This document shows positions 2,184-45,577 of a DNA stretch of 64,000 nucleotides, piece by piece (position 1 is the first letter of the stretch; each line of letters opens with the position of its first letter). A program made the translations under genes and the position numbers. The stretch is from Hyaloraphidium curvatum (lineage: Eukaryota > Monoblepharomycota > Hyaloraphidiomycetes > Hyaloraphidiales > Hyaloraphidiaceae): NCBI GenBank assembly GCA_025558095.1, contig JAIVFI010000011.1, forward strand, positions 248,001-312,000, written 5' to 3'. The notes beneath the pieces were generated by a model. That model was not told the DNA's origin, ran no database searches, and saw only the letters and a list, made by a program, of their open reading frames with translations.

Positions 2184-3748
2184 ATGGAGGCGCTCAAGCG
2201 CGACGCCGACGCCGCGTCCGTCTCGCTGGACGTGTCAAACGGCGCAGTGCCAGCGGAAACGGGCGACGCGGGCGCCAAGGAGCCCGCGTTCGTCCTCTCG
2301 CCCGCGGAATACCTCGCCGCCGTCCCGCTGTTCCCGAAGCTGCGCGCAACTTTCGCGGGATCGCCGCCGCCGGCGGACCGCGCGAAGGAGCTCCGCGCCG
2401 CCCGGCCGCTGGACCGCGCGGCGCTGCTGGCGGGGCTGTCGGCCGAGCCGGCGCTGCAGTACTTCACGGCGTTTCAACTCTGGCTGAATCCATTCGCGGC
2501 CCGCGTGTTCGAGCGCGGTCTCGCCGTCTTCCTGACGGGAATGTCGGTCATCTCGTCGACCTGGGTCTTTCGGACGGACTACGGCTTCGCGGCGAGGCAG
2601 TTCGCCGTCGGCTTCGCGAGCTGGGTCCTGTTGTTCACCCAGATTACCCTCGTCCATCCGTCGATCAGCACTTTCCGCCGCGCTCTCGAGCCCCTCGGGG
2701 CGAGCCACGGGGACGTTCCGCGCACTCTGGACGCGTACCCCCTCGCGGGACTGGCGAGGTGGAGGGCGCTCTTGGACGACTCCAGCAACGGGAACCCGTC
2801 GAAGCTCCTATCCCACGACCCCCTGGATGACCTGTGTCCCTGCAGCCTTTCCCGGTGCGCGGGAGGTCTGGTCAAGGGCATAGCCATCCTCCGGATCGTC
2901 GAGGCCGCCGTCAAGATCGCACTCCTCGGCACGTTCTGCGTTTTCACGTTCTGGACCCCCTACATCACCTTGGCGAGCAGTTTCTGGGGGACGACGTGGA
3001 CCGCCGTGCTGGGATCGCTGAACGGTGCGAGATTCCGTCAGCACGGCAAAGTGAGCTGACGCCCCACCTCCCCATCCCCAGCGGTCGCCCTGGCATTGTA
3101 CGCCTTCCCAAACTCGATCTGCCGGTTCACGGCGAGCACCACCGCCCTGCGGCTCTCCGAACGCGTGGCACACCGCGCCATGAAGCTCGCGCTCGACGAC
3201 CTCCTGGCGCGCCTGACGACCGGCGCCTCGCGGCCGGAGGCTTCCGTCGCGGGGGAACCCTACGCGGAACTGCACACCGTTTTTACCGCCATCTGGAGGA
3301 CGAGGATATCCAGCTTCCATTTTTCAAGGCTGCAGGTGTTGTCGGCCGGGCTCGCCGCCCTGCTTTCCGTCGTCAACATGGTCCGTTTAATCCCCCCTGT
3401 GGCAGCCAAACCGCGTGCTGACCGCCTCCCGGCCGCCGCCCGCAGATCGTCGGCTCCTGCATCCCATCCATGTTCCTCGGCTACATCCTCTACGCCATCC
3501 TCGCCCAGGTCCTCTTCGACCTCCTCGCCCTCGCCGCCTCCAACGCACAGGTCACCTCCATACGCGACCTGTACCTCGAGGCCCAGCGCGAGATCAGGGA
3601 GCTTCCCCTGCCGCCGGACCCTCAGCGCGCGGCGGACCTCCGACGACACGACGCCGTGGGCTGGGGATCTCTATATCGCTGGACTTTGTGTGCCAGGGCG
3701 GGTGAGGACGCGGTGCGGGGAGGCATGTGGTATCGTTGTATCATCTAG
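2184..3748 (+). CDS. Polytopic membrane protein of unknown function
   Basis: Exons 2184-3024, 3082-3380 and 3446-3748 join in phase (57- and 65-bp introns) and give about 480 residues. Hydrophobic segments are visible around AVFLTGMSVISSTW, FAVGFASWVLLFTQITLV, IALLGTFCVFTFW, the stretch formed across the first splice (WTAVLGSLNG into AVALALYAF), LQVLSAGLAALLSVV, and the stretch formed by the second splice (MFLGYILYAILAQVLFDLLA). This suggests six or more transmembrane helices with a roughly 100-residue acidic cytosolic N-terminus. No transporter or channel signature was recognised. The last 60 residues after the final helix are less convincing, so a further 3' intron or an earlier end is possible. 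Confidence 0.68.
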
Positions 3749-20172: not shown

Positions 20173-23100
20173 TCACTTGGCGGTGCTGCGCTGACGTTCG
20201 TGTGCGTCCCAGTTGACAGCCAAACCCGTCTCGGTCTGCTGCTGCGAAGGGGCCCCGAGCAGGTTCTGCAGGTCCGCGAGCGACTTTTCCAGCCTCTGCG
20301 CCGCGGTCTCGCTCTCGGGCGGGAGTCTCTGCTGCACGTCCGCGGCCATCGATGCGCCGTTGGGGCCGACCAGTTGGGTGAGCGTCCTCGCCCCGAGCAT
20401 GTCCATCACCTCGCGCGGTATCACCGCGGGGCCCGCGTCCCCGGAAGGCGCATCCGGCACCCCGGAAGCGTAGTGCTGGACCGCCGCCGGTGGTGGTGCA
20501 GACGAGAATGAGTTGCTGCTGGCGACGGCCGATCCGGAAGATGTGACGGCCCGCTTGGAAGTCTTTTTCGGGAGTGGCTGCCTCGCGGGCGTATCCTCGG
20601 GCAGCCGCATGTTCGCGAGGGTCTGCTCGCCGAGGCCGGCGAACGCTGCCTGCGGGACGGCGGCGGAAGGCTGCCTCATGTGCTGCTCGTTGCCGACGGG
20701 GATCGCCGAGGGGGTCGGCGAACGCACGTGGTCCTTGCCGCCCGTCGACAGGTACTGGCTGCCCGACGCACCGACGGGGCCGACGGCAGGCGACGTCGAG
20801 TGTGTAGAAATTGCACCGGATGCGTTCCTGCTGCGCTCCTGCTGCGGCATGGCCCACGGATCCTTGAGCTGCGACGGCGAGCGCTTGTGGCCCTGGCCTG
20901 CCGAGGCCGGAGAAAGCATTGGCGAGCCGTTGGTGGTCGGCAACGCCACCGTCATCGGCGGCAGCGGGCTCGTCACCATCCTCGAGCGCTGCTGCGCGCC
21001 CTGCGTCGGCTGCAGGTACTCGGATCGCTGGCGCCCGTGGTCCTTCACGGGATCGAGGTACGGGCTCGCCTGCTTGGCCGGCGGTTGCGCCGAAGGCGAC
21101 CTCGCATGATCCTTGGTTCCTGGCGGTTGCACCGAAGGCGACCCCATGTGATCCCTCGCCGCATGCGAATCCACGGCCGGCACGAGGTTCGCCAGCGTCT
21201 CCGCCCCGAGCCCCTGGAGGGCCCCATGCGGCAGCTCGTCCGCCAGCCGCGGGTCGAAGATGTGGTCGTCCGATTCGGCGCGCGACACGTCGCCCCCGGG
21301 CATGAGCATGCCCGCCAACGTCGCCTCCCCGAGCCCGGCGAGAGCGTTGACGGGCAGGCTCGGCGGCGTGGGCTCCCGTCCCCTGGCCCCCGCGCCGGCG
21401 GGACCGAGAAGCCCGGCCAGCGTCGCATCCCCGAGCCCGGCGAGCACGCCCTTGGGCAGATCCTCCGCATGCTCCCCGATCTCGCCGCTGCGCACGGGTG
21501 CAACCATTCCCGCCAGCGTCGCGGCCCCAAGGCCGTCGAGCGCACCCGCAGGAAGCTGCGACGGCCTGGCGGCCTCCTGGTGCGCCTGCCCCACCGTGGG
21601 CGCCACCAACCCCGCCAGCGTCGCCGCCCCCAGCCCCTCCAGCGCGCCCGTAGGGAGCTGCGCCTGCGACGCCTTGGCACCCTCGTGCACCTGGCTGCCC
21701 GTCGGCGCCAGCATCCCCGCCAGCGTGGCGTCGCCCAGCCCCGCGAGCGCGCCGCCGGGAGGCCCGCCCGCCGGCGGCGCAACCTCGGCCATCTCCTGCT
21801 TCGCCGGCACCGCGGCCGCGGCCGCGGCGCCGCCCTCGGGCCCGTGCGGCCTGTCCCCCCTGGACCCCATCGATCCCACCGAATCCTCGTCCGAGTGCCA
21901 GACGAAGCCCTCCTCGTCCGGCTCCGGCTTCTTGGCGGGGGTCGGCTTGCGCCGCACCGCGAGCGCAATCCCCGCCCCGATCAGGCCCGCAGCCGCCACG
22001 CCGCCGACGGCGATCCCGATGATCGCGCCGGTGCTCAGCCCCCCCGACGGCTGCGGCGCGGGGGTCGGCTCGGTGCCCGTCGGTGTGGGAACGGTGCCCG
22101 TTGCGGTAGGCGACATGGCAAGACGGAAGGGGTACTCGGTCCGGCCGTCCTGGGAAAGGAGGGTATCGGGCATGCCGACCTCGAAGTCCGCGCGGCGTGC
22201 CAGGCGCGCGACCGCGGTGCGGTACGCCCGCACGAGGCGTCGTCGGCGGCCGCCGGGGGTGACGCCCTCGTAGACGGCCATGAAGCGGGCGTAGAAGGTG
22301 AAGCCCAGGTTGTCCGAGGTTTCGCGGGTGGTGACGAAGTAGCCCTCGAGGGAGGGGCCCATGTTGGGCGTCAGCGCGATCCGCAGCGTCGCATTGTCCA
22401 GCTTCCTGACGTTGAGGCCCGTCGCGGTGCCCAGCCGGCGGAGGTAGTTGGGCGTGCCGAAGCCGTCGTTGCCCTTGCCCAGGGTTTCGTTGAAGCCCGG
22501 CGTCGCCGGGTCGCGGGTTTCGTTGACGCTGCCGAGCTTGGCCACGGTCAGCTCCACGAGCTTGAGGTCGTGCACGTCCACGATGGTCGACGTCGCATTG
22601 GCGACAAACAACACCTCGTCGCCGAAGAAGTACGTGTCCCTGTCGTCGCCCGGCAGCGCCCCGGGCCCGCCGGCCGACTTCATCTCCACCGAGAGCGTGC
22701 CCGTGGCCTCTGCCAGCGCGCCGAACTCGCACACATTGATCCCCGCGCCGCCATCGGTCCCCGCCGTCTGGATGCTGGTGCCGGCCTGCTGGATCGCGCT
22801 CCGGCAATCGGACACGGCGAAGCCCTGCTCGGGCCTGCCGGCCTGCGGGAGGAAGCACTCGCTGCGGAATTCCCAGGCGTAGACGCCGCCGATGTCCGCC
22901 ACGGCACCCGGCCCGGCACACACGCTCGCGGGGAGGGTGAAAACGGCGCGGCCAGACTGCCAGCACTGCGTGTCGGTCGTGTTGACAGGCAGGCCCGAGG
23001 CGTTGTTGGCGGGGGGGTTGGCCATGCACGCGGCGGGCACTGTGAAGACGGGGTCGAGCGCGGTGACCTTGGGGAGGTCGCGCATGGCGGTGGTGTTGGG

Positions 23101-36787: not shown

Positions 36788-37049
36788 TGCCTCCGCGCGA
36801 CGCCGCGGTCCTTACGCTCTATTCCCCGATCCTGAACGGCCCGCGAATCGGGTCGCCATCGGGCCCTCGCCGTTTTCTGTCGGCCTGTCAAAGCCGTTGG
36901 TGCGCGGATTTCCTGCACAATAAACGTCAAACCGTAGTTTCACACACAGGAGTCGCCGCGTGCGAATTTGCAACCGCTAGAGCACAGTCTCCATCGCAAA
37001 AGGCGCGTGGTGCCTCCTGCGTCGCATCGGGGAACGGCACGGCCAAAAC

Positions 37050-38080
37050 ATGCTTCTGAGCGGGCCAGAAACCGCGGTTCGGCTCAAGCAGACCGGCAAG
37101 CTTGGCCCGGACGAGATTGCTGCTGTACTCGCAATTCACCGAACGACGTATTTCCGTTGGATCCGCCGATGTGGGGCTCAGACCGTTCCGGACCATCCCC
37201 GCAAGGCCTTCCGCAAGGTGTCCGAGGAAATGGTCCGGCACGTAGTTGACGAGGCCAAAGCTCGCGTCCGCGTGACGCAAAGGGAGCTCGCTGCTGACCT
37301 GGCGGAAAAGTTTGGCGTTTTGGTGTCGCAGCAGCATATCTCGCGGCTGCTGAAGGCCAACAGGGTCACGAGGAAGAAGCTCACCATTAAGAGCGCCGAA
37401 GCCCTGAAACAACCCGAGCGGCACCGCATGTTCCACGAGAGGGTCACTTCCTTTGATTTGGGGCGCCTAGGTGCCTTGGACGAGTCCTCATTCCAACTCA
37501 ACGATCCGGGGCGCTTCGGCTACTCGGAGAAGGGGACTCCCGCCGTCGTATACCTGCCAGGGAACCGGGGCCCCAAGGTGACCCTTTGCCTCGCCATCTC
37601 ACCCACTTCGCGACCCGGTAATCACACTGGAAACGTGATCTCGTACCAGATCTACAGCGGCAACATGAACACCGAGAGGTTCTGTGCTTTTCTCAAGACT
37701 ATTCGCGCCGGGGCTTGTGGGTCCGAGTCCCTGGGCGTTATCCTGGACAATGCGGGTTTCCACGGCTCTCCTCTGCGGGCAAGGAAGACCACGGACGGCA
37801 CGGCAATAATAAAGAACCTCTCGGGCAAGTCGTTCCTTGCGGTCCAGGCCGTAGCAAAGGCCAACAATCTGAGCCTCATCTACCTGCGACCGAGATCGCC
37901 GGAATTTAACCCGACCGAGTACGTGTTTGCCACGATCAAGAACCTCGTGAGGCGGGACTGCCCCAGGACGGTGCCGGATCTCGTCCGGTCCATCGAGAGG
38001 GCCATTCAAATCGTCGGCCACGGCGATCTGATGGCGACGTTCCGGCACTGCTTGAAGCTAAGCGAGGCTGAGTTTGTGCG
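37050..38080 (+). other. DDE transposase domain within the fusion gene
   Basis: About 340 residues. A homeodomain-like HTH (AVRLKQTGKLGPDEIAAVLA) is followed by a second DNA-binding helix set (VTQRELAADLAEKFGVLVSQ). The RNase-H-fold acidic triad maps to codons at 37479, 37746 and 37917. The spacing between the second Asp and the Glu is about 56 residues, longer than the usual 34-36 of the superfamily, because of an insert rich in Lys and Gly before the last motif. The triad is intact on sequence, so catalysis is possible. Confidence 0.8.
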
Positions 38081-41000
38081 CATCGCGGAATCCGCGTCCG
38101 CCGGCAAATGTGTGGCGCGGAAGGTCACACTACAAGGTCAGATCTCTGCCTTTGCTTCTCCGGCTCCTCAGACGTGCCCTTCCGCGATGGAGGGCGCAGC
38201 AGCGACCCAGACCGAAGCAAACGCGGCCGAGCGGCTCGCTGAAGAGGTGGACTGCCATGACGGTTGCGCATCGGGCATGCAGACCGCGCTGACTCACGAC
38301 AACGCCCACTCCGAGCAGGCTCGCAACCTCGGCGTCGCCCACATCAACCCGCACCAAAAGCACACTTTGCTGACCCTGAGGGAAGTTCTCCACGTCGATG
38401 GTTCGGCGAGGGAATTCTTTGGGCCGTGGAACGACTTCACGGACTCCGCTCAAAGGACCGCGGGCTTCGACGCTGCGGACGTCCTCGGGGGCCTCTCCAA
38501 CCTCGGTGAAGCTCCTTTTGAGTTCATCTGTCAGCGGGTGGCATCGGGTCGGGGGTACAAGCTGGAGCGCGAGCTTTTCGTCGCGCGCCTCCGGAACATC
38601 GTCGCCCGGCGGCGCCGGGTCGCCCCCAGTCTGATCGGACCAGACGCACCGGCACCTCCCTTTTTCCGCCCCGCGGACGATGGCGCGGATCTGGGACCGC
38701 CGTCAGCCCCCGACGTCTCCATCTCCCAGCTGGATAACCTCGCCCGCTATGCCGACGTCCCACCGGAACTTAACGTCTCGTTCAAGAAAGCCAGCCGCGC
38801 CGCGTTGAAACAGCTGTTTCCGCTCTCAGCCCTTGCAAACGACACCGTGCTGGACGAGAGGTTCGCCATCCTCCTATCGGGCCTTGTACGAAACGGTCGT
38901 GGACCAGAATGGCTACGTGCGCTCGCTGTTTCTCTCTGGGGACAGCTCGGCCCGGCCGGGAGGGCACGCATGGACAGCTTCGAAACATCCGAGACAGCAC
39001 GTCGTGCTCTGCATTATGTTCACCAGCCCATTTCGAAGGTCTGTCGGTTGGAGTACCTCGAACGCGCGGCTTCGACCGAGTCTTTGCCAAGGAACCTTAG
39101 GCAGATACTGGAGGAAGCGTGCCGCACGCTGAAGGACCAGCAGGGCCGCTCGCTTTTTGATGCGTCGCCCGGCCTGGAGTACTTCCTTGCTTCGCTCTCC
39201 CTCCCGCAGCGATGCAAGATAGTCATGGCGGCGCGTTTGCCGGATAGTGTGGCGAGTCGCAATGCGGAAGGGCGCAAGAGATTCTTCGATTGGGCGGTGT
39301 GGAACCCGATGGCGGCCAACGAGGAGGCCCTCGCCATCGAGAATCCGGGTTCCGTTCCCGTGCTGGTGTGCAATCTCCTGTCGAGCAGCCCCGCAATCCC
39401 AAACTGATTTTTGCCCCGGCAGCTGCTTTCGTTCCCGGGCCTTTTCCAGATGAGCCCGGGCGTACCTGGACTGGATGCAGAGGGCGATAAGCTGCTGGCA
39501 ACCCTGTTCCTGAAGGCGGAGCAGCTCGGGTGGGAACACTCTTCCATGGTGACGCTGCGGCTGATGGAGTCGGGGCCCAAGATGCGCGATTTTACCCTGG
39601 ACTTGTGCGGTATGCCCGCGCTGGTGCGCGGTAGCAACCCCGAAGCACGGCAGGAGGCCGCGCGCACCGCGCTCGACGCCAAGCTCCACTTCCTCGCGGA
39701 ATCCGTTGGACTGCTGGACTTCGGCCGTATCCAGAAGCGGGATTGTCCGCTCTGTTCCTTCAGTGTGCAGGTGGAAGGCGAAGTCCCGGCGAAGGCTGGG
39801 CGGCGGCGCAAGGTCGCGGCGTCGGGGATGGTGGCTGACGGAGCTGCGCGGGAGCGTGTCTATGACGCCGAGCTTCGGCTCCTCCACCACGTCAAGGGTG
39901 CGCACCTCACCTGCAGAGCGTGCCCGGGGAAGGGACATCAGTTCGACCTCGAGAGTGAGTTCCGGCAGCATGTCGAGGAGAACCACCGTGGGGCGTGAGT
40001 TGCACCGCGCTTTCCATGCATGCCTGGGACCGATGCGAAGCTGACCGCCGCCGCGGACAGTTTGGTCGCCCCAAGGAATCTCACCACGTCGTTCGGCCAG
40101 TTCATTGCCAACGCACACTACATTGTCCCGTTCGCGTCGACAAACCTCAAAGCCAACATTCCTACGGGCCTCGGCGGCTCGTCCTGCCCTTTCTGTTTCG
40201 CCGGTGGCGGGAGGCACCGGCAGGAGTGCTCTCCGAAGCGGCGGTGGGTCGCGCTCAACGGCTTCCTCGCACTTGGCGACCCCCAGCACGAGCGATACAA
40301 GACGATGACGGAGCTGGCCGTCGAGTGGTTCCCGGCGGCCGAGGTGTGCCACCCATGGGCGCGGGGCCCGTACGAGCAAGTCGGGCCCCTCATCACCAAG
40401 GCCTGCACCCTCGCCGCCATCTTGTTCAAGATCATCTGGACCAAGATCTTGTTGCAGATCCACAACAAAGAGCTCCCGGACCAAGACGGATCCGTCACGC
40501 AGGACATGCTCGCCAGCTTTCCCCCGTCTTACGTCGCAAAGATTGCCATCCACGCCGTGCTTGGTGCCGGCCAGATGTCCGCCGCTGTTGGAACCCGCCG
40601 CGCGGGAAAGCAGAAGTCGGCCGGGCTCGGTGCTGGGGCGAGATACTCGGGCCATTCGGGTGCGCCAGGAGTGGAGCAGCTTGTGGACGGCGGTCCGGAC
40701 CTCGGAGCCAACGACGACGATCGAGACGAGGTGCTCGAGGACGTTGACTTCGAGGACGATGACGACGCGATGGCCGAGGACCAGGCCGGCGCCAAGATCT
40801 TGGCCGACTTCTTGCACGGCGAGCTGGATCAGATTGAGGACGAGGACTTGGTTACGGCTGAGGACACCCCCGATCTCTCGCAGGTTGCTGATCAGGGCGC
40901 ACCGTCCGTTCTCACCGTCGCGGAGCACAACGCAGCGGCAAAGCTTGTCCGCAAGGCGGCCGTTGCTGCGTTTGCAGAGGCGCGGGAACTTGTGGGCGAG

Positions 41001-44000
41001 ACGTACGAAAAGCTCAGGCCGCTTTTCGTGCAGGGACCTTTGCTCCGCTATGCCGAGCAGGTCGCTTTCAACCGAGCTCGAAGCGTGCCGCAGCGGCTGC
41101 TGACTGCGCTCAAGGTTCTCATCCGTCGCTTCCTACGCGGGGAGGTGAACGCGGGCGTCGGCCGGAGGCGGATTGGCCCAATCCTCAGCTACGCTCTGGC
41201 AAAGCTCGGATATGGGGACGACGACTTCTCCAATTTCCCGTTCGAAAGCGCATTTGGCTGTGGTCTTGCCGAGGCCACGGAGCTCAGGGTCGGGCTGGGG
41301 AGGCTTTTCCGGCCGTTCAGAGGCTTGCAGCTGAACCGGATCGTTGACCTCCGGGATTCAAAACAGAAGCCGCCGGTGCCGGCAACCGTTTCGCAGCGGA
41401 GGGTTATCGCTCGGGTCCTGCAGGACAAGCAGGCGGGCAACCCCGTGGCGGCCGCGGTGCGAACCGTGAACCTGCCGAAGGGCAAGCCGCGCGGAAAGGT
41501 CGACGCGGAAACGGAGGCGGTGCGCAGCTACCTCCAGAACATTTGGGAGACGCTGCCGCGGGCCTCACCTGCGGAGAAGGCTGACTTGCGAAAGGTGGAG
41601 CTGCAGGAGCTGAGGGACTGGGTGGTTGCAAACCGTCTACAGCTTCGGAGCATCCCCTTCCGCTACCCGGCCGTGACCACGGCAACGATTCGGTCGACAG
41701 AGCAGAAACCCAAGTTCTGGGTCCCCGAGCACGCCGAGGACATGAACGAGGCGGCGGCGGCGGCATTGGTGGGGCAGAACCGGCCCCACTGGGAAAGCGA
41801 GAAGCTTCTGGTGGCGCGGATGAGCGAGTATGACCTCGACAAGTGTCGTTCATCCACGAACCCCGCGGACGAAGCCTTCGGCTTCCAGATGTGCTTCATC
41901 GCCCTGCACGAGCTCGAAAAGCAGGACGAGGCGCTGAAGAAGAGGGCCGCGTCCGCGGCTGCTGCACTGCCGGAACCTGGAACGGCGCGGAGGACGAGCA
42001 CCGCCAGGGACCCCGATTCAACCCCAACTTTCCCAACCATTTCAACTGCTCCGGTCAAGGACAGGGAGGCTTCGAACAAGACCAGGAGGGCCCGCAACAC
42101 GTGGCGGCCGCACCGCGTCGAGAAGCGGCATTACAGCAAGAATGGCTCCCCGAAGCGATGGCACGGGTTCGTCGTGAGCTTCCGTAAGCGCCGACCGCAG
42201 CCGGGGCCCGAGGGACTCGCCAAGAAGGAGACCATGGAGACGAAGCGGCGGGAGCGCAAGGCGGCCGCCGCCGCCGCGATGGCGGGGCTTGGCGCCGCCC
42301 AGACCGGCAAGGAAAAGGCAGCCTCGTGGGCGCGGCGGAAGCTTCGGGCTGCGGTCGCCGAAATCAGCTTGTCCCCCGTGACCGTCTACATCTCGGCCTC
42401 GGATCTGCCCGAGTTTTTGTCCAAGCTGGGCGTGGAGGTCGCGCCTGGCATCGACACCTCGCGCGTTGACTCGGACTACCTATTGGGCCACCTGCTCAAC
42501 GGCGGCAACCAACTCGTCAACGAGGACCGGCTCTTCCGCCTCCGTCAGCAGGGCAAAGTCTCGGCAAGGGGCCATGCCGCCGCCACGCAGCCCATCTATC
42601 GTCGCACCGCGGACGTTCTGAGGTACTCCGGCGTCCGGGGCATCTATCATTGCGGCAGCACCCTGGGCATTCTTAACGAAGAAGTCTCCTTCGTGGAAAA
42701 GGTCTCGTTCCAGCAGTCGCAGCAGCAGGAGCGGCAAAACACGACACAGGACGTCGAGCCGCCAAAGCGCGCAGCGCATTCGCCAGCAGCCGCGCCGGCT
42801 CCTCCTGTTCAAACTCGGCCCACCGTCTCCGTTCCCGCCGCAGCTCATGTGCCCGCCGGTCTTGCTGCTTTCGAAGTGGATGTTTCGTTCCCTCGCGATG
42901 TTCCGATGGATCCCTACCCGCCGCTCTACACCGGTCCATGGCTGCCAAACGGCGATCCGGACCCGCCGTGCGACATGGCTGTCTTCGATGGTGGGCATTT
43001 TGCTCAGTGACGCACGGGTTCGGAGGCTGATCGGATCCTCACTTTTCCAGGCCAGAATCGGATTTGGCATGGGGGCATGGTCTACTACCTGCAGGCGACG
43101 GCCCAAGGGGACGAATCGGTCCCGATGGATTGGGAGCCCTCTTATTGTGCCAGCAGCAACCTTAACTTCACCACCATGCCTTCCGAGCCTCCGGCGGACT
43201 GCGGCATCCCCGCCGCGGTCCCGCCGGAACCCCCGCCCTTTTTCTCCTTCGTCGAACCACCAGCCTCGACTTCTCTCCCTGCCTCCATTCCCCCGGAACC
43301 GCCCCCGCATTGGGTGCACGACCCGTGCTCGTGCTGTCAAGATGCCGCCTGCAAGGCCGTGGACTGTGCGCCCAACGTGTTCGCGCCCCTGAGCTCGGGG
43401 CACAACGACCCTCCCTGCGCGACTGTCTCGCCCGGTGACTCGGTGCCCGAGACTTCTGTGCATCCATGCGCGGCCCTTCCTTTCCCCGACTTCTCGCCGC
43501 CACTTCCTTCCCCCTTCCTTTCTTGCTTCCCTCCCGAAGTCGTCGTTTGCGCGGTCGAACCGTCGCCGCCGACGGTAACGGTCGAGGGCAAGTTCGCTGC
43601 CCCCGTACCTCCTCAGCTGGCCCCGACCCCGGTTCCGCTCCCGCCGCGTTCTGCCGAGCCGTTGCCGCGGCCCCCGGTCGACTTCAAGACTGGCATTCCC
43701 GTCTACTACCTCAGCCGCCCTGACCATGTGTCCGTGCTGGCACCCAATCTCCTGCACATGCCGACGCAGGCGGAAATGTTCGAGCGGGCCGAGCGCGGCG
43801 AGCCAGTGGAGGGCGGGGTCGTCGACGTGGATCCGAATCGCTGGTTTCTGGCTGTTGCCAACCGCCGCGTCGACGTGCGGCTCGTTGCCAAGAGCCTGAA
43901 CCCCGGGCCGAACGGACGCTACGACTTCGCCAACAGTCATCTGCCGGGGACAACGGAGCGCATCACCGTGACCAATGCCGACGGCACCAAGTCGCACTAC

Positions 44001-45422
44001 GTGCCGAAGCGGGCGAACCCGTCCAAGGCCGACGGTTCCGTCAGCTTCGGGAGGATCGTCGGCTTCCACCTAGAGCACTCCTGCTCCGATACTAAGCGGA
44101 TCGCAAGGTCTTTCGGTCCGTCGCCGCCTGCCGCTGGAGCCTGCAGACACCACCCGCTCTGGGAGCCCAAGATCTCGGAGTTCAAGCCGCCGGCGCCCGA
44201 TTCGCGCCCCAACGACGCTGCAAAGGCGGAGAAGCACGCTCGGCGCAACGTCGAACTGTTCCCGACCCCTGGCGGCTGCACGGACGAGTTTGGTGCCAAG
44301 CTGTGGGGCGAGGTCGCTGGTGCCGGCCGTGCGGGGACCCCGGCGCTGCCGGAGCTCATCCTCGGTGTTCCGGCCAAGCTCGACCGCCGCCTGTGCGGCT
44401 ACGACAAGGCGGCCGCGCGTCTGAATGCCACCAAGCGGACCACCATGCTGGACGTCAACGATTGCGAGGGCAACCCTGTGCAGAAGTCTCTCCACGATTT
44501 CGAGCGCGACCTGCCCTCTCAACGCACGACAAACAGTGCAGCCTTCTCGGACTACACGAGGGCGCTGCTGCCACAACTCGACCGCATCCTGGACGTCTAC
44601 TGTTCCGGAGAACGGAGGTGGGCAAGCCAATCCCTGTGGCAACGACTTCGCTCACGCATCCTGCAGCCTGGATCGTGTGCGCACGATTCGCCGGCGCCGC
44701 GAGGTCCTCAGCTGGATCTGTCGCGACATGTGTCGCAACCCGTATTCGGGCAAGTACGATCCACAGACGACCATCGCATACGGCGCCGCGCGATTCGGCC
44801 ATGCGAGCAAGGGCGGCCCGGCCTCCCGGATCGTTCGCTTCAGGGCGGAGCTGGCCAAGGCCGGGATCATGGTCTTGGTCAACGAGTACCTCACGTCCCA
44901 GATGTGCAGCTGGTGCGGCAGCCGCCGTGATCATCCGACTCGCCTGACGTCCTTTCCAGCTGCAAGACCACCTATGTCGTCGGAATCCGGAACCCCGGCT
45001 CCAAGGGCGAGGTGCGCGGGGTGAAATACTGTCTCCTCTGCCGCCGCTTCTGGATGCGCGACGTGAACAGTGTGCACTCCATGGAGCACCTCTTCTGGTT
45101 CGGCCTCATCACCGGAGGGGAGCGCCCCTGGCCGTTCAGGCCGGACACCAGGAAGCCGAAGCCGCAGCCCAAGCTCCGAGCTGGGACTGGTGCAGCGCCG
45201 CGCAAGTCCGCGGGTGAGCGCGCTCGCATTCGCGACGGTCATCCCGAGCGTCATCCCGAGCTGATCCGGGAGCTCCAGGTGCCGCCACAGGCCGCAAGCG
45301 TACGGCCGCAAGCGCCGCGAATGGGTCGGTCAAGAAGCTCAAGCCGGCAAGCTGACCTGGCCGCGGAAACAGTTACAAGTTGGCGTGCCATGCACCGCGT
45401 GGGCGCCATTGCATTTGCTTGA
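37050..45422 (+). CDS. IS630/Tc1-mariner-type transposase fused to a Fanzor (TnpB-like) nuclease
   Basis: Six segments join in phase through canonical GT-AG introns: 37050-39365, 39423-39994, 40061-42990, 43051-44617, 44667-44912 and 44960-45422 (introns 57, 66, 60, 49 and 47 bp), about 2697 residues. Residues 1-340 are a transposase: HTH and winged-helix region, then acidic residues in GALDESSF (D144), VILDNAGFH (D233) and RPRSPEFNPTEYVF (E290). Next come about 430 unassigned residues, Cys/His zinc-binding-like clusters and about 900 residues without recognised homology. The C-terminus is Fanzor-like: VVDVDPNRW (RuvC I), GAARFGHASKGGPASRIVRF, VNEYLTSQMCS (Glu and zinc ribbon), CLLC, and WMRDVNS (RuvC III). 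The segments starting near 39411 and 43051 lack good ATGs of their own, which favours one transcript. Two or three separate genes remain possible. Confidence 0.7.
39738..39991 (+). other. Zinc-finger-like Cys/His clusters in the fusion gene
   Basis: A CPLCSF pair is followed after an insert by HHVKGAH, then CRACPGKGHQF and HVEENH. This gives two C2H2-like units, one of them interrupted by a basic linker. A further CPFCFAGGGRHRQEC cluster follows after the next intron (around 40185-40230). These look like nucleic-acid-binding modules sitting between the transposase and nuclease parts. Confidence 0.5.
43790..45130 (+). other. Fanzor / TnpB-like RuvC nuclease domain
   Basis: Order of motifs: GGVVDVDPNRWFLAVANRR with the RuvC-I Asp at codon 43830; a helical region (LLPQLDRILDVYCSG); TIA-YGAARFGHASKGGPA; the Fanzor-typical VNEYLTSQ with Glu at codon 44884 just before the zinc ribbon; Cys pairs at about 44905-44912 (split by an intron) and at 45030-45041; and WMRDVNSVHSM with the RuvC-III Asp at codon 45060. 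The Glu placed next to the 'TS-x-x-C' segment fits the rearranged catalytic site described for Fanzors. All three predicted catalytic acids are present. Confidence 0.78.
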
Positions 45423-45486
45423 TCGAGGTGGAGTCCGTCAGGGACCGCCTTTTATTCGCAGGCTCGATGATGAACATTGCTGCTAG

Positions 45487-45504
45487 GCCGCAAAGGATTG
45501 CGGC
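45487..45504. repeat. Perfect 7-bp hairpin downstream of the Fanzor gene
   Basis: gccgcaa - agga - ttgcggc forms a 7-bp stem with a 4-nt loop, 65 bp after the Fanzor stop codon. It lies where the guide (omega) RNA of Fanzor/TnpB systems usually maps, downstream of the nuclease frame. It could equally be a 3' UTR or transcription-end structure. Confidence 0.45.
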
Positions 45505-45577
45505 ACAGGGGGAACAGTAGCAGTTTCTGAGAGTGTAGCTACGTACGTACGCGTTCGCGCTCGTTCACAGGACAGCA

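Follow-up and report, generated by a model that had tools for sequence, protein, structure and literature searches.

An element of Hyaloraphidium curvatum whose single recognisable gene appears to join an IS630-type transposase to a Fanzor-like nuclease

The DNA considered here is a stretch of 64,000 nucleotides (nt) from the contig JAIVFI010000011.1 of Hyaloraphidium curvatum (assembly GCA_025558095.1, positions 248,001 to 312,000), referred to below as the window. It contains a transposable element of about 8.6 kb, termed element A, which is probably an autonomous and recently active cut-and-paste transposon of the IS630/Tc1-mariner type; its only recognisable gene, in six exons, would encode an IS630-type DDE transposase, a middle region and a Fanzor-like RuvC nuclease. 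The fusion of transposase and Fanzor in one gene is well supported by comparison with related elements of the same genome. The insertions, judged from their flanks, lie mostly at a fixed distance and in a fixed orientation downstream of a family-specific motif.

Extent and copies of element A

An earlier note, made from the window alone, had drawn attention to 37050..45422. These coordinates hold for the spliced gene; the element itself reaches beyond them, and its ends were placed by comparing copy flanks and by DNA searches (Table 1). Ten copies are present in the assembly (31.9 Mb in 55 contigs), and searches with three different parts of the element as queries return the same ten places. 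The nine copies outside the window are 99.66-99.92% identical to the window copy over the aligned stretches, and the window copy lacks 22 nt near its left end that are present in the others. The full open frame is preserved in seven of the ten copies, and an in-frame deletion of 171 bp within the proline-rich linker of L016 brings those in frame to eight; L010 has a 1-nt deletion at window position 40196, and L017 has a 5' deletion and a premature stop. With copies that are young and mostly intact, element A appears to have been active recently. A search for solo right ends gave only the ten full copies, such counts being lower bounds. Short, imperfect inverted repeats are found at the ends of A (TAGTTTCACAC and TAGCTACACTC) and of a related family, B (TAGTCGCACACAT and TGGCTACACACAT). 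The terminal bases are TAG...CTA in A and TAG...CCA in B, the left end being TCG, not TAG, in six of the ten A copies. An assembly artefact was considered and rejected, as the ten A copies lie on eight contigs and the five B copies on five.

Table 1. Positions in the window of element A and its predicted features
Feature	Position	Strand	Description
Whole element A	36935-45541	+	short imperfect terminal inverted repeats TAG...CTA
Target-site motif place	36903..36911	+	host sequence 32 bp upstream of the element; reads CGCGGATTT here, with GGATTT as the only part in common with the pattern
2-bp target-site duplication, left copy CG	36933..36934		right copy CG at 45542-45543
Exon 1	37050..39365	+	helix-turn-helix (HTH) and DDE_3/IS630 transposase (aa 1-345), extension (aa 346-772)
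Intron 1	39366..39422	+	57 nt; contains the stop 39405-39407; common to B
Exon 2	39423..39994	+	zinc-finger-like segment C-x2-C...H-x4-H at about 39906-39988 (motif reading)
Intron 2	39995..40060	+	66 nt; common to B
Exon 3	40061..42990	+	middle region; C-x2-C-x6-H-x3-C at 40185-40229, with equal spacing in B
N-terminal block of the Fanzor part, in exon 3	~42306-42764	+	placed by eye
Intron 3	42991..43050	+	60 nt; critical junction; in B, a GT-AG stretch of 52 nt matches it in codon and phase
Exon 4	43051..44617	+	proline-rich linker and RuvC-I (Asp2200 at 43830-43832, motif DPNR)
Intron 4	44618..44666	+	49 nt; common to B
Exon 5	44667..44912	+	RuvC-II, Glu2535 at 44884-44886, followed after six residues by the first zinc-ribbon Cys
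Intron 5	44913..44959	+	47 nt; inside the zinc-ribbon CxxC; common to B
Exon 6	44960..45422	+	rest of the zinc ribbon, RuvC-III (Asp2578 at 45060-45062)
3' hairpin GAGGUGG..UCC	45425..45451	+	loop GGACCGCCUU; candidate omega-RNA or 3'-end signal

The gene and its counterparts in families B, C and D

Splicing at the five introns, which had been proposed to be bounded by GT and AG and to keep phase, bears out both properties and yields a continuous 2,697-codon frame whose one stop is at its end. The ten copies do not differ in their splice-site hexamers. The gene model can be compared with family B (L018-L022, of which L018 serves as reference and to which the family's copies are 99.76-99.98% identical). 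At the DNA level A and B are 65% identical in the transposase and 71% identical in the zinc-ribbon region, and a query from the middle region of A found no DNA match in family B. At the protein level, with its introns placed, B encodes 2,623 aa that align with residues 1-2621 of A in one high-scoring segment pair at 38.7% identity, the last 76-77 residues of A not being conserved. Introns 1, 3, 4 and 5 of A fall in the same alignment column and phase as introns of the B model, intron 2 agrees in phase with a B intron three columns off, and the B model has two introns more than A. The B introns were chosen by their fit to the A alignment or by splice consensus, intron 3 being placed by eye; the frame-keeping GT-AG choices numbered three for intron 1, three for intron 4, two for intron 5 and one for intron 2, with at least 10 and 15 candidates for the two extra introns. 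Unspliced tblastn alignments of A and B break at introns 1 and 5 and show stops at introns 2 and 4.

The stop at 39405-39407, use of which had been named as an argument against a single gene, falls within intron 1, an intron that B also has (L018:3019-3077). Retention of this intron would give a transposase-only protein of 785 aa in A, ending at 39405, and a comparable one in B, where the in-frame stop lies at position 3058, inside B intron 1.

Between A and B, nonsynonymous divergence (dN) is 0.28 in the transposase, 0.77 in the extension, 0.71 in the middle region, 0.64 in the N-terminal block of the Fanzor part and 0.44 in the region of RuvC; synonymous divergence (dS) in these five segments of 224-837 codons is 1.13-1.67, near saturation. 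A sixth segment, the 12-codon tail, has a dS of 2.62, and in the proline-rich linker dS is saturated and not measurable. In all six segments with measurable dS, dN/dS is below 1. Chance open frames in GC-rich DNA were considered as a source of the reading and were rejected on conservation and dN/dS.

The critical junction is that at intron 3, around which A reads LPNGDPDPPCDMAVFDG and then QNRIWHGGMVYY, and B reads LPHGAPDPPPGMAVVD and then AHGWLHAGGTVFF, flanking its 52-nt GT-AG stretch; conserved residues adjoin the intron on both sides in both families. A stop (43008-43010) and an ATG (43077) occur there in A, and the ATG aligns with a Thr in B. Two further families, C and D, are 33-59% identical to A over transposase segments. 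Family C has an open frame of 2,050 codons that covers the middle region and the Fanzor part after removal of one 48-nt GT-AG intron, and family D, which has no intron at that point, has a 980-codon frame running from the middle region to past RuvC-I. As these frames are read, the middle region is joined to the Fanzor part in A-D, and the join from transposase to middle region is seen in A and B alone. The presence of a Fanzor N-terminal block before intron 3 in A is suggested by a reading by eye, its tblastn match to C being weak (A 1673-1812, E 0.035). The single fused gene of roughly 2,700 residues proposed in the earlier note is supported, at the level of sequence, by the introns common to B and by families C and D.

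Domains of the predicted protein

The N-terminal part scores 123 bits against the NCBIfam model IS630 (NF033545; curated cut-off 100) and 56 bits against Pfam DDE_3 (PF13358; cut-off 28.6), so that the hidden Markov model check confirms the IS630/mariner-type transposase first read at this end. Motif reading places its catalytic residues at D144, D233 and E290, with 56 residues between D2 and E. Among public sequences, P0001 (457 aa; 68 member sequences from ENA) is a transposase that matches exon 1 at 43% identity across half of its length, and relatives evidently exist elsewhere.

The middle region, of about 1,300 residues, has two zinc-binding motifs, a C2H2-like segment and a C-x2-C-x6-H-x3-C motif, whose spacing is kept between A and B according to motif reading; no Pfam match was found in this region for the two window frames tested.

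The C-terminal third of the predicted protein carries most of the Fanzor fingerprint. In the RuvC region, identity to B is 57% for A, 33% for C and 33% for D. The zinc ribbon of family C scores 32.1 bits and that of family D 31.2 bits against PF07282, the C4 zinc-ribbon or TNB domain (cut-off 26.3), and the Fanzor part of A is identified as such because its RuvC region is homologous to those of C and D. The earlier note had placed a Fanzor nuclease in the last 450 residues; the identification stands, but the Fanzor part looks larger, at approximately residues 1640-2620. Invariant in A-D are the RuvC residues D, E and D, the four zinc-ribbon cysteines and RD-N-S, and A retains the triad as Asp2200, Glu2535 and Asp2578. 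An alternative RuvC-II Glu (ExxxxxxCxxC) has been described as a fingerprint of Fanzors, together with DPG as RuvC-I, in the available part of PMC10711439; Glu2535-YLTSQM-Cys in A fits this alternative Glu, and the E is invariant in A-D. A general Fanzor pattern, D-X(125,275)-[TS][TS]-XX-C4-X(5,50)-RD, is given in the available part of PMC3627910.

Searched against PDB, a profile of the four families gave seven hits, comprising LaTranC (E 0.0013 and 0.0016), Guillardia theta Fanzor1 (E 0.0015), Cas12g (E 0.048), the TnpB-like L79 (E 0.1), and a MYND protein (E 0.31) and RadB (E 1.3), the last two of which look unrelated and were set aside. A alone gave no match in PDB. Likewise, no database homologue of the full-length A protein was found at E <= 0.001 among 7,995 candidates scored, none of the family C Fanzor frame at E <= 0.01 among 8,000 scored, and no relative was confirmed in viral contigs searched with the Fanzor alignment and with exon 1.

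Insertion sites

The dinucleotides flanking the element match in nine of the ten A copies (CG, GC, TG, AT, CC, TG, AC, CC and AG), the right end of L017 being read 2 nt shorter for this comparison; those of L011 are unmatched. They match directly in three of the five B copies, and in the remaining two there are, on our own reading, a few extra bases at the left end. Since the matching dinucleotides vary between copies, insertion appears to duplicate 2 bp of free sequence, and the TA rule of Tc1/mariner elements does not apply.

Upstream of the A insertions, a motif resembling AAGGG[G/A/C][T/C]T lies in register at about -32 in seven of ten left flanks and in a fixed orientation. All five left flanks of B contain CG[T/C]CGATC, which lies at -28 in three, at -25 in one and at -13 in one. 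The A left flanks reach 8.92 bits, with shuffles giving a maximum of 3.61 (sd 0.41) and none of 5000 attaining the observed value, and the B value is reached by 0.12% of shuffles (P 0.0012). For the right flanks the corresponding probabilities by shuffles were P 0.07 (A) and 0.17 (B). Most insertions thus have a motif specific to their family on the upstream side, 32 bp (A) or 28 bp (B) from the left end and in a fixed orientation; this, together with the 2-bp duplications of free sequence, is a new observation here.

The 3' end

From the stop codon on, a block of about 36 nt is 92% identical between A and B, and the same hairpin is possible in it, with a variable loop and a T run. The hairpin forms in both stretches of A that were folded, and in B in a stretch of 117 nt and not in one of 51 nt. 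Shuffled 3' stretches fold almost as well (z -0.7 to -1.8), so the hairpin is a candidate only. A second hairpin, GGCCGCAAAGGATTGCGGC, lies near the right end (window 45486-45504); within the element as a whole, the A motif finds its best plus-strand match in the core of this hairpin, AAAGGATTG.

Weighing the evidence

A number of results weigh against a single fused gene with a Fanzor-like nuclease and a motif at fixed distance. The zinc ribbon of A itself reaches 20 bits against PF07282, under the cut-off of 26.3; RuvC-I is DPNR in all four families, with D and P kept and G changed to N relative to DPG; and in A every element of the published Fanzor pattern is present, but 337 residues separate D from TS in place of 125-275. 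Among the A copies, counted with L017 left out, 19 of 52 substitutions are synonymous where 27% would be expected, a weak excess (P 0.09). Conservation is poor in the proline-rich linker at intron 3, and reading B through this part requires an additional intron, picked from 15 frame-keeping candidates. Retention of intron 1 may act as a splice switch, in which case the fusion need not be the sole product. As for the insertion sites, the window copy has only GGATTT in register, L012 has the motif 4 nt away and L011 has none, and in two of the five B flanks the motif lies at a distance other than 28 bp. The flank comparison found no conserved host bases touching the left end, which disfavours ordinary homing of the TnpB type that depends on a target-adjacent motif. 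The search for an element-borne guide to the target motif gave negative or weak results with the flank profile run against the element, with the motif matrix described below and with right flanks taken as guides for the sites of other copies; the right flanks gave at least 10 of 12 matches in 5 of 220 comparisons, within the range of shuffles.

The most serious alternative, possible though on balance unlikely, is that the motif belongs to host chromatin, the elements landing next to a transcription factor site that lies upstream of a gene, with no part in target choice for the protein itself. An ATG frame of at least 200 codons starts no more than 60 bp downstream of five of the 15 insertions, against 8% of random window positions (the control stretches were 700 nt and the observed ones 740 nt long), so promoter-proximal insertion is possible. 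In the genome the 11-mer of the B motif has 80 occurrences and its reversed control 5, an enrichment that may be compositional, since the control contains CTAG. Two points speak against this explanation: the 10-mer of the A motif, AAGGGGTTTC, shows no enrichment, with 42 occurrences to the 47 of its reversed control, and the two families have different motifs.

It is more doubtful that the Fanzor part acts in target choice, making the fused protein an RNA-guided or Fanzor-positioned transposase and a eukaryotic counterpart of CRISPR-associated transposons (CAST). In its fullest form, which we consider comparably unlikely, this proposal describes a one-protein site-directing eukaryotic transposase in which the fused Fanzor, with a short element-encoded guide or with the zinc-finger middle region, would recognise the motif and deliver the IS630 transposase 28-32 bp downstream in one orientation, the TA requirement becoming dispensable. 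The motif, its mostly fixed spacing and the fixed orientation at the 15 insertions are consistent with it, as is a weak look-alike of each family's own motif in its 3' non-coding end. With the A motif matrix built from eight of the ten copies (L011 and L012 left out) and that of B from all five, 6 of 300 shuffles were as good as the non-coding ends on the A plus strand and 10 of 300 on the B minus strand. However, the look-alikes lie on opposite strands, that of B falls in sequence common to A, and neither is significant over the six region and strand tests made per family; in searches of the whole element, shuffles did equally well (6 of 20 for the A plus strand, 4 of 20 for the B minus strand). 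Right-flank guides match the targets of other copies no better than shuffles do, and the RuvC residues are intact, unlike those of the CAST protein Cas12k, which is nuclease-dead. The coupling of excision or integration with guided cleavage, which the earlier note had envisaged, therefore finds no backing in the guide tests at the target motif.

That the transposon holds two or more genes, one for the transposase with its end at 39407 or 43010 and another for the Fanzor beginning at ATG 43077, accords with the ends of the open frames, with the first ATG of the next frame and with the Mariner element PGv-1, whose three proteins keep Fanzor1 apart from the transposase (PMC3627910, in the available part), but it is very improbable, given that GT-AG introns of B at the same places and phases remove those stops, that conserved residues stand on both sides of intron 3, that D passes from the middle region into the Fanzor part without an intron, that the proposed start codon is a Thr in B and that, by eye and with the weak match to C, part of the Fanzor N-terminal block precedes the junction.

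A working model

Under the fused-gene reading, the transposase part would excise and insert the element, and the zinc fingers of the middle region, or a host factor bound there, would select the site and hold the transposase at a fixed distance from it; placement at such a distance would be explained most simply in this way. The Fanzor part may be an active nuclease whose guide is an RNA made at the 3' end, where the conserved hairpin may mark its place. As proposed for TnpB, the Fanzor could cut the emptied donor site or the sister copy and thereby cause the element to be copied back. Through the fusion, transposase and nuclease would be forced to act on the same DNA.

Fanzors accompany many transposases. 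A transposase and a Fanzor in one polypeptide, in young and mostly intact copies, would make the role of Fanzors for transposases testable: the nuclease would have to act where the transposase acts, and the target motif at a fixed distance would provide an immediate readout. If the fusion directs insertion, it would be a natural single-chain counterpart of engineered Cas-transposase fusions.

Related and neighbouring loci

Three further families, E, F and G (L038, L039 and L040), encode IS630-type transposases with 42-46% identity to A, in E within a frame of 822 aa, and no Fanzor was found in the 8.7-9.5 kb read at these loci. They may be relatives that did not gain, or that lost, the nuclease. 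The A copy L010 (right flank at G000:C15 near 545100) lies upstream of a frame that starts like the transposase of E (MKNGLEIPVPNICSFFGINRS...), 12 bp from its ATG, and one transposon has evidently landed at the start of another. L034 (G000:C5:336026-336172, minus strand) encodes a further Fanzor-like protein, separate and different in type; it scores 34.9 bits against PF07282, over the cut-off, and has the motifs LGLDVG and EYLSSQRCPRC. A tRNA-Trp (CCA) gene of 83 nt lies outside the element at window 21170-21252 on the minus strand, and no tRNA genes were found in the 14 element loci fetched.

Comparison with known systems

CAST are multi-protein, Tn7-like bacterial systems whose targets are programmed by spacers. 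Element A resembles them in that it inserts in a single orientation, a fixed distance away from a site that is recognised, and in having a protein of the TnpB lineage in the system. It differs in that it would consist of one protein, with an IS630 transposase and an intact RuvC triad, and no guide match was found. With the IS630 family (NF033545) it shares an HTH and a DDE transposase over the curated cut-off; its duplication, however, is not TA, 56 residues lie between D2 and E, and more than 2,300 extra residues are present.

No report of a natural transposase-Fanzor fusion was found among the titles and abstract openings of the literature searched. The words 'fusion' and 'fused' are absent from the available parts of PMC3627910 and PMC10432273, and 'fused' occurs three times in that of PMC10711439, where the occurrences examined concern protein tags. 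The element Spu-1 of Spizellomyces punctatus, with its nuclease SpuFz1, has like element A a RuvC/zinc-ribbon nuclease and non-coding sequence at the element 3' end (PMC10432273, in the available part). It is a single-ORF (open reading frame) element of 2.1 kb without a transposase, and its omega-RNA has been demonstrated, whereas in A there is a candidate hairpin. Closest in composition are PGv-1 and PUl-1, in which, according to the available part of the report, a Tc1/mariner-type transposase and a Fanzor1 likewise lie inside one element with terminal inverted repeats (Bao and Jurka, 2013; PMC3627910). In PGv-1 the transposase, an endonuclease and the Fanzor are three proteins in one Mariner element, and both elements have TA duplications, whereas element A would have one spliced gene, 2-bp duplications of free sequence, a large middle region and a target motif at a mostly fixed distance.

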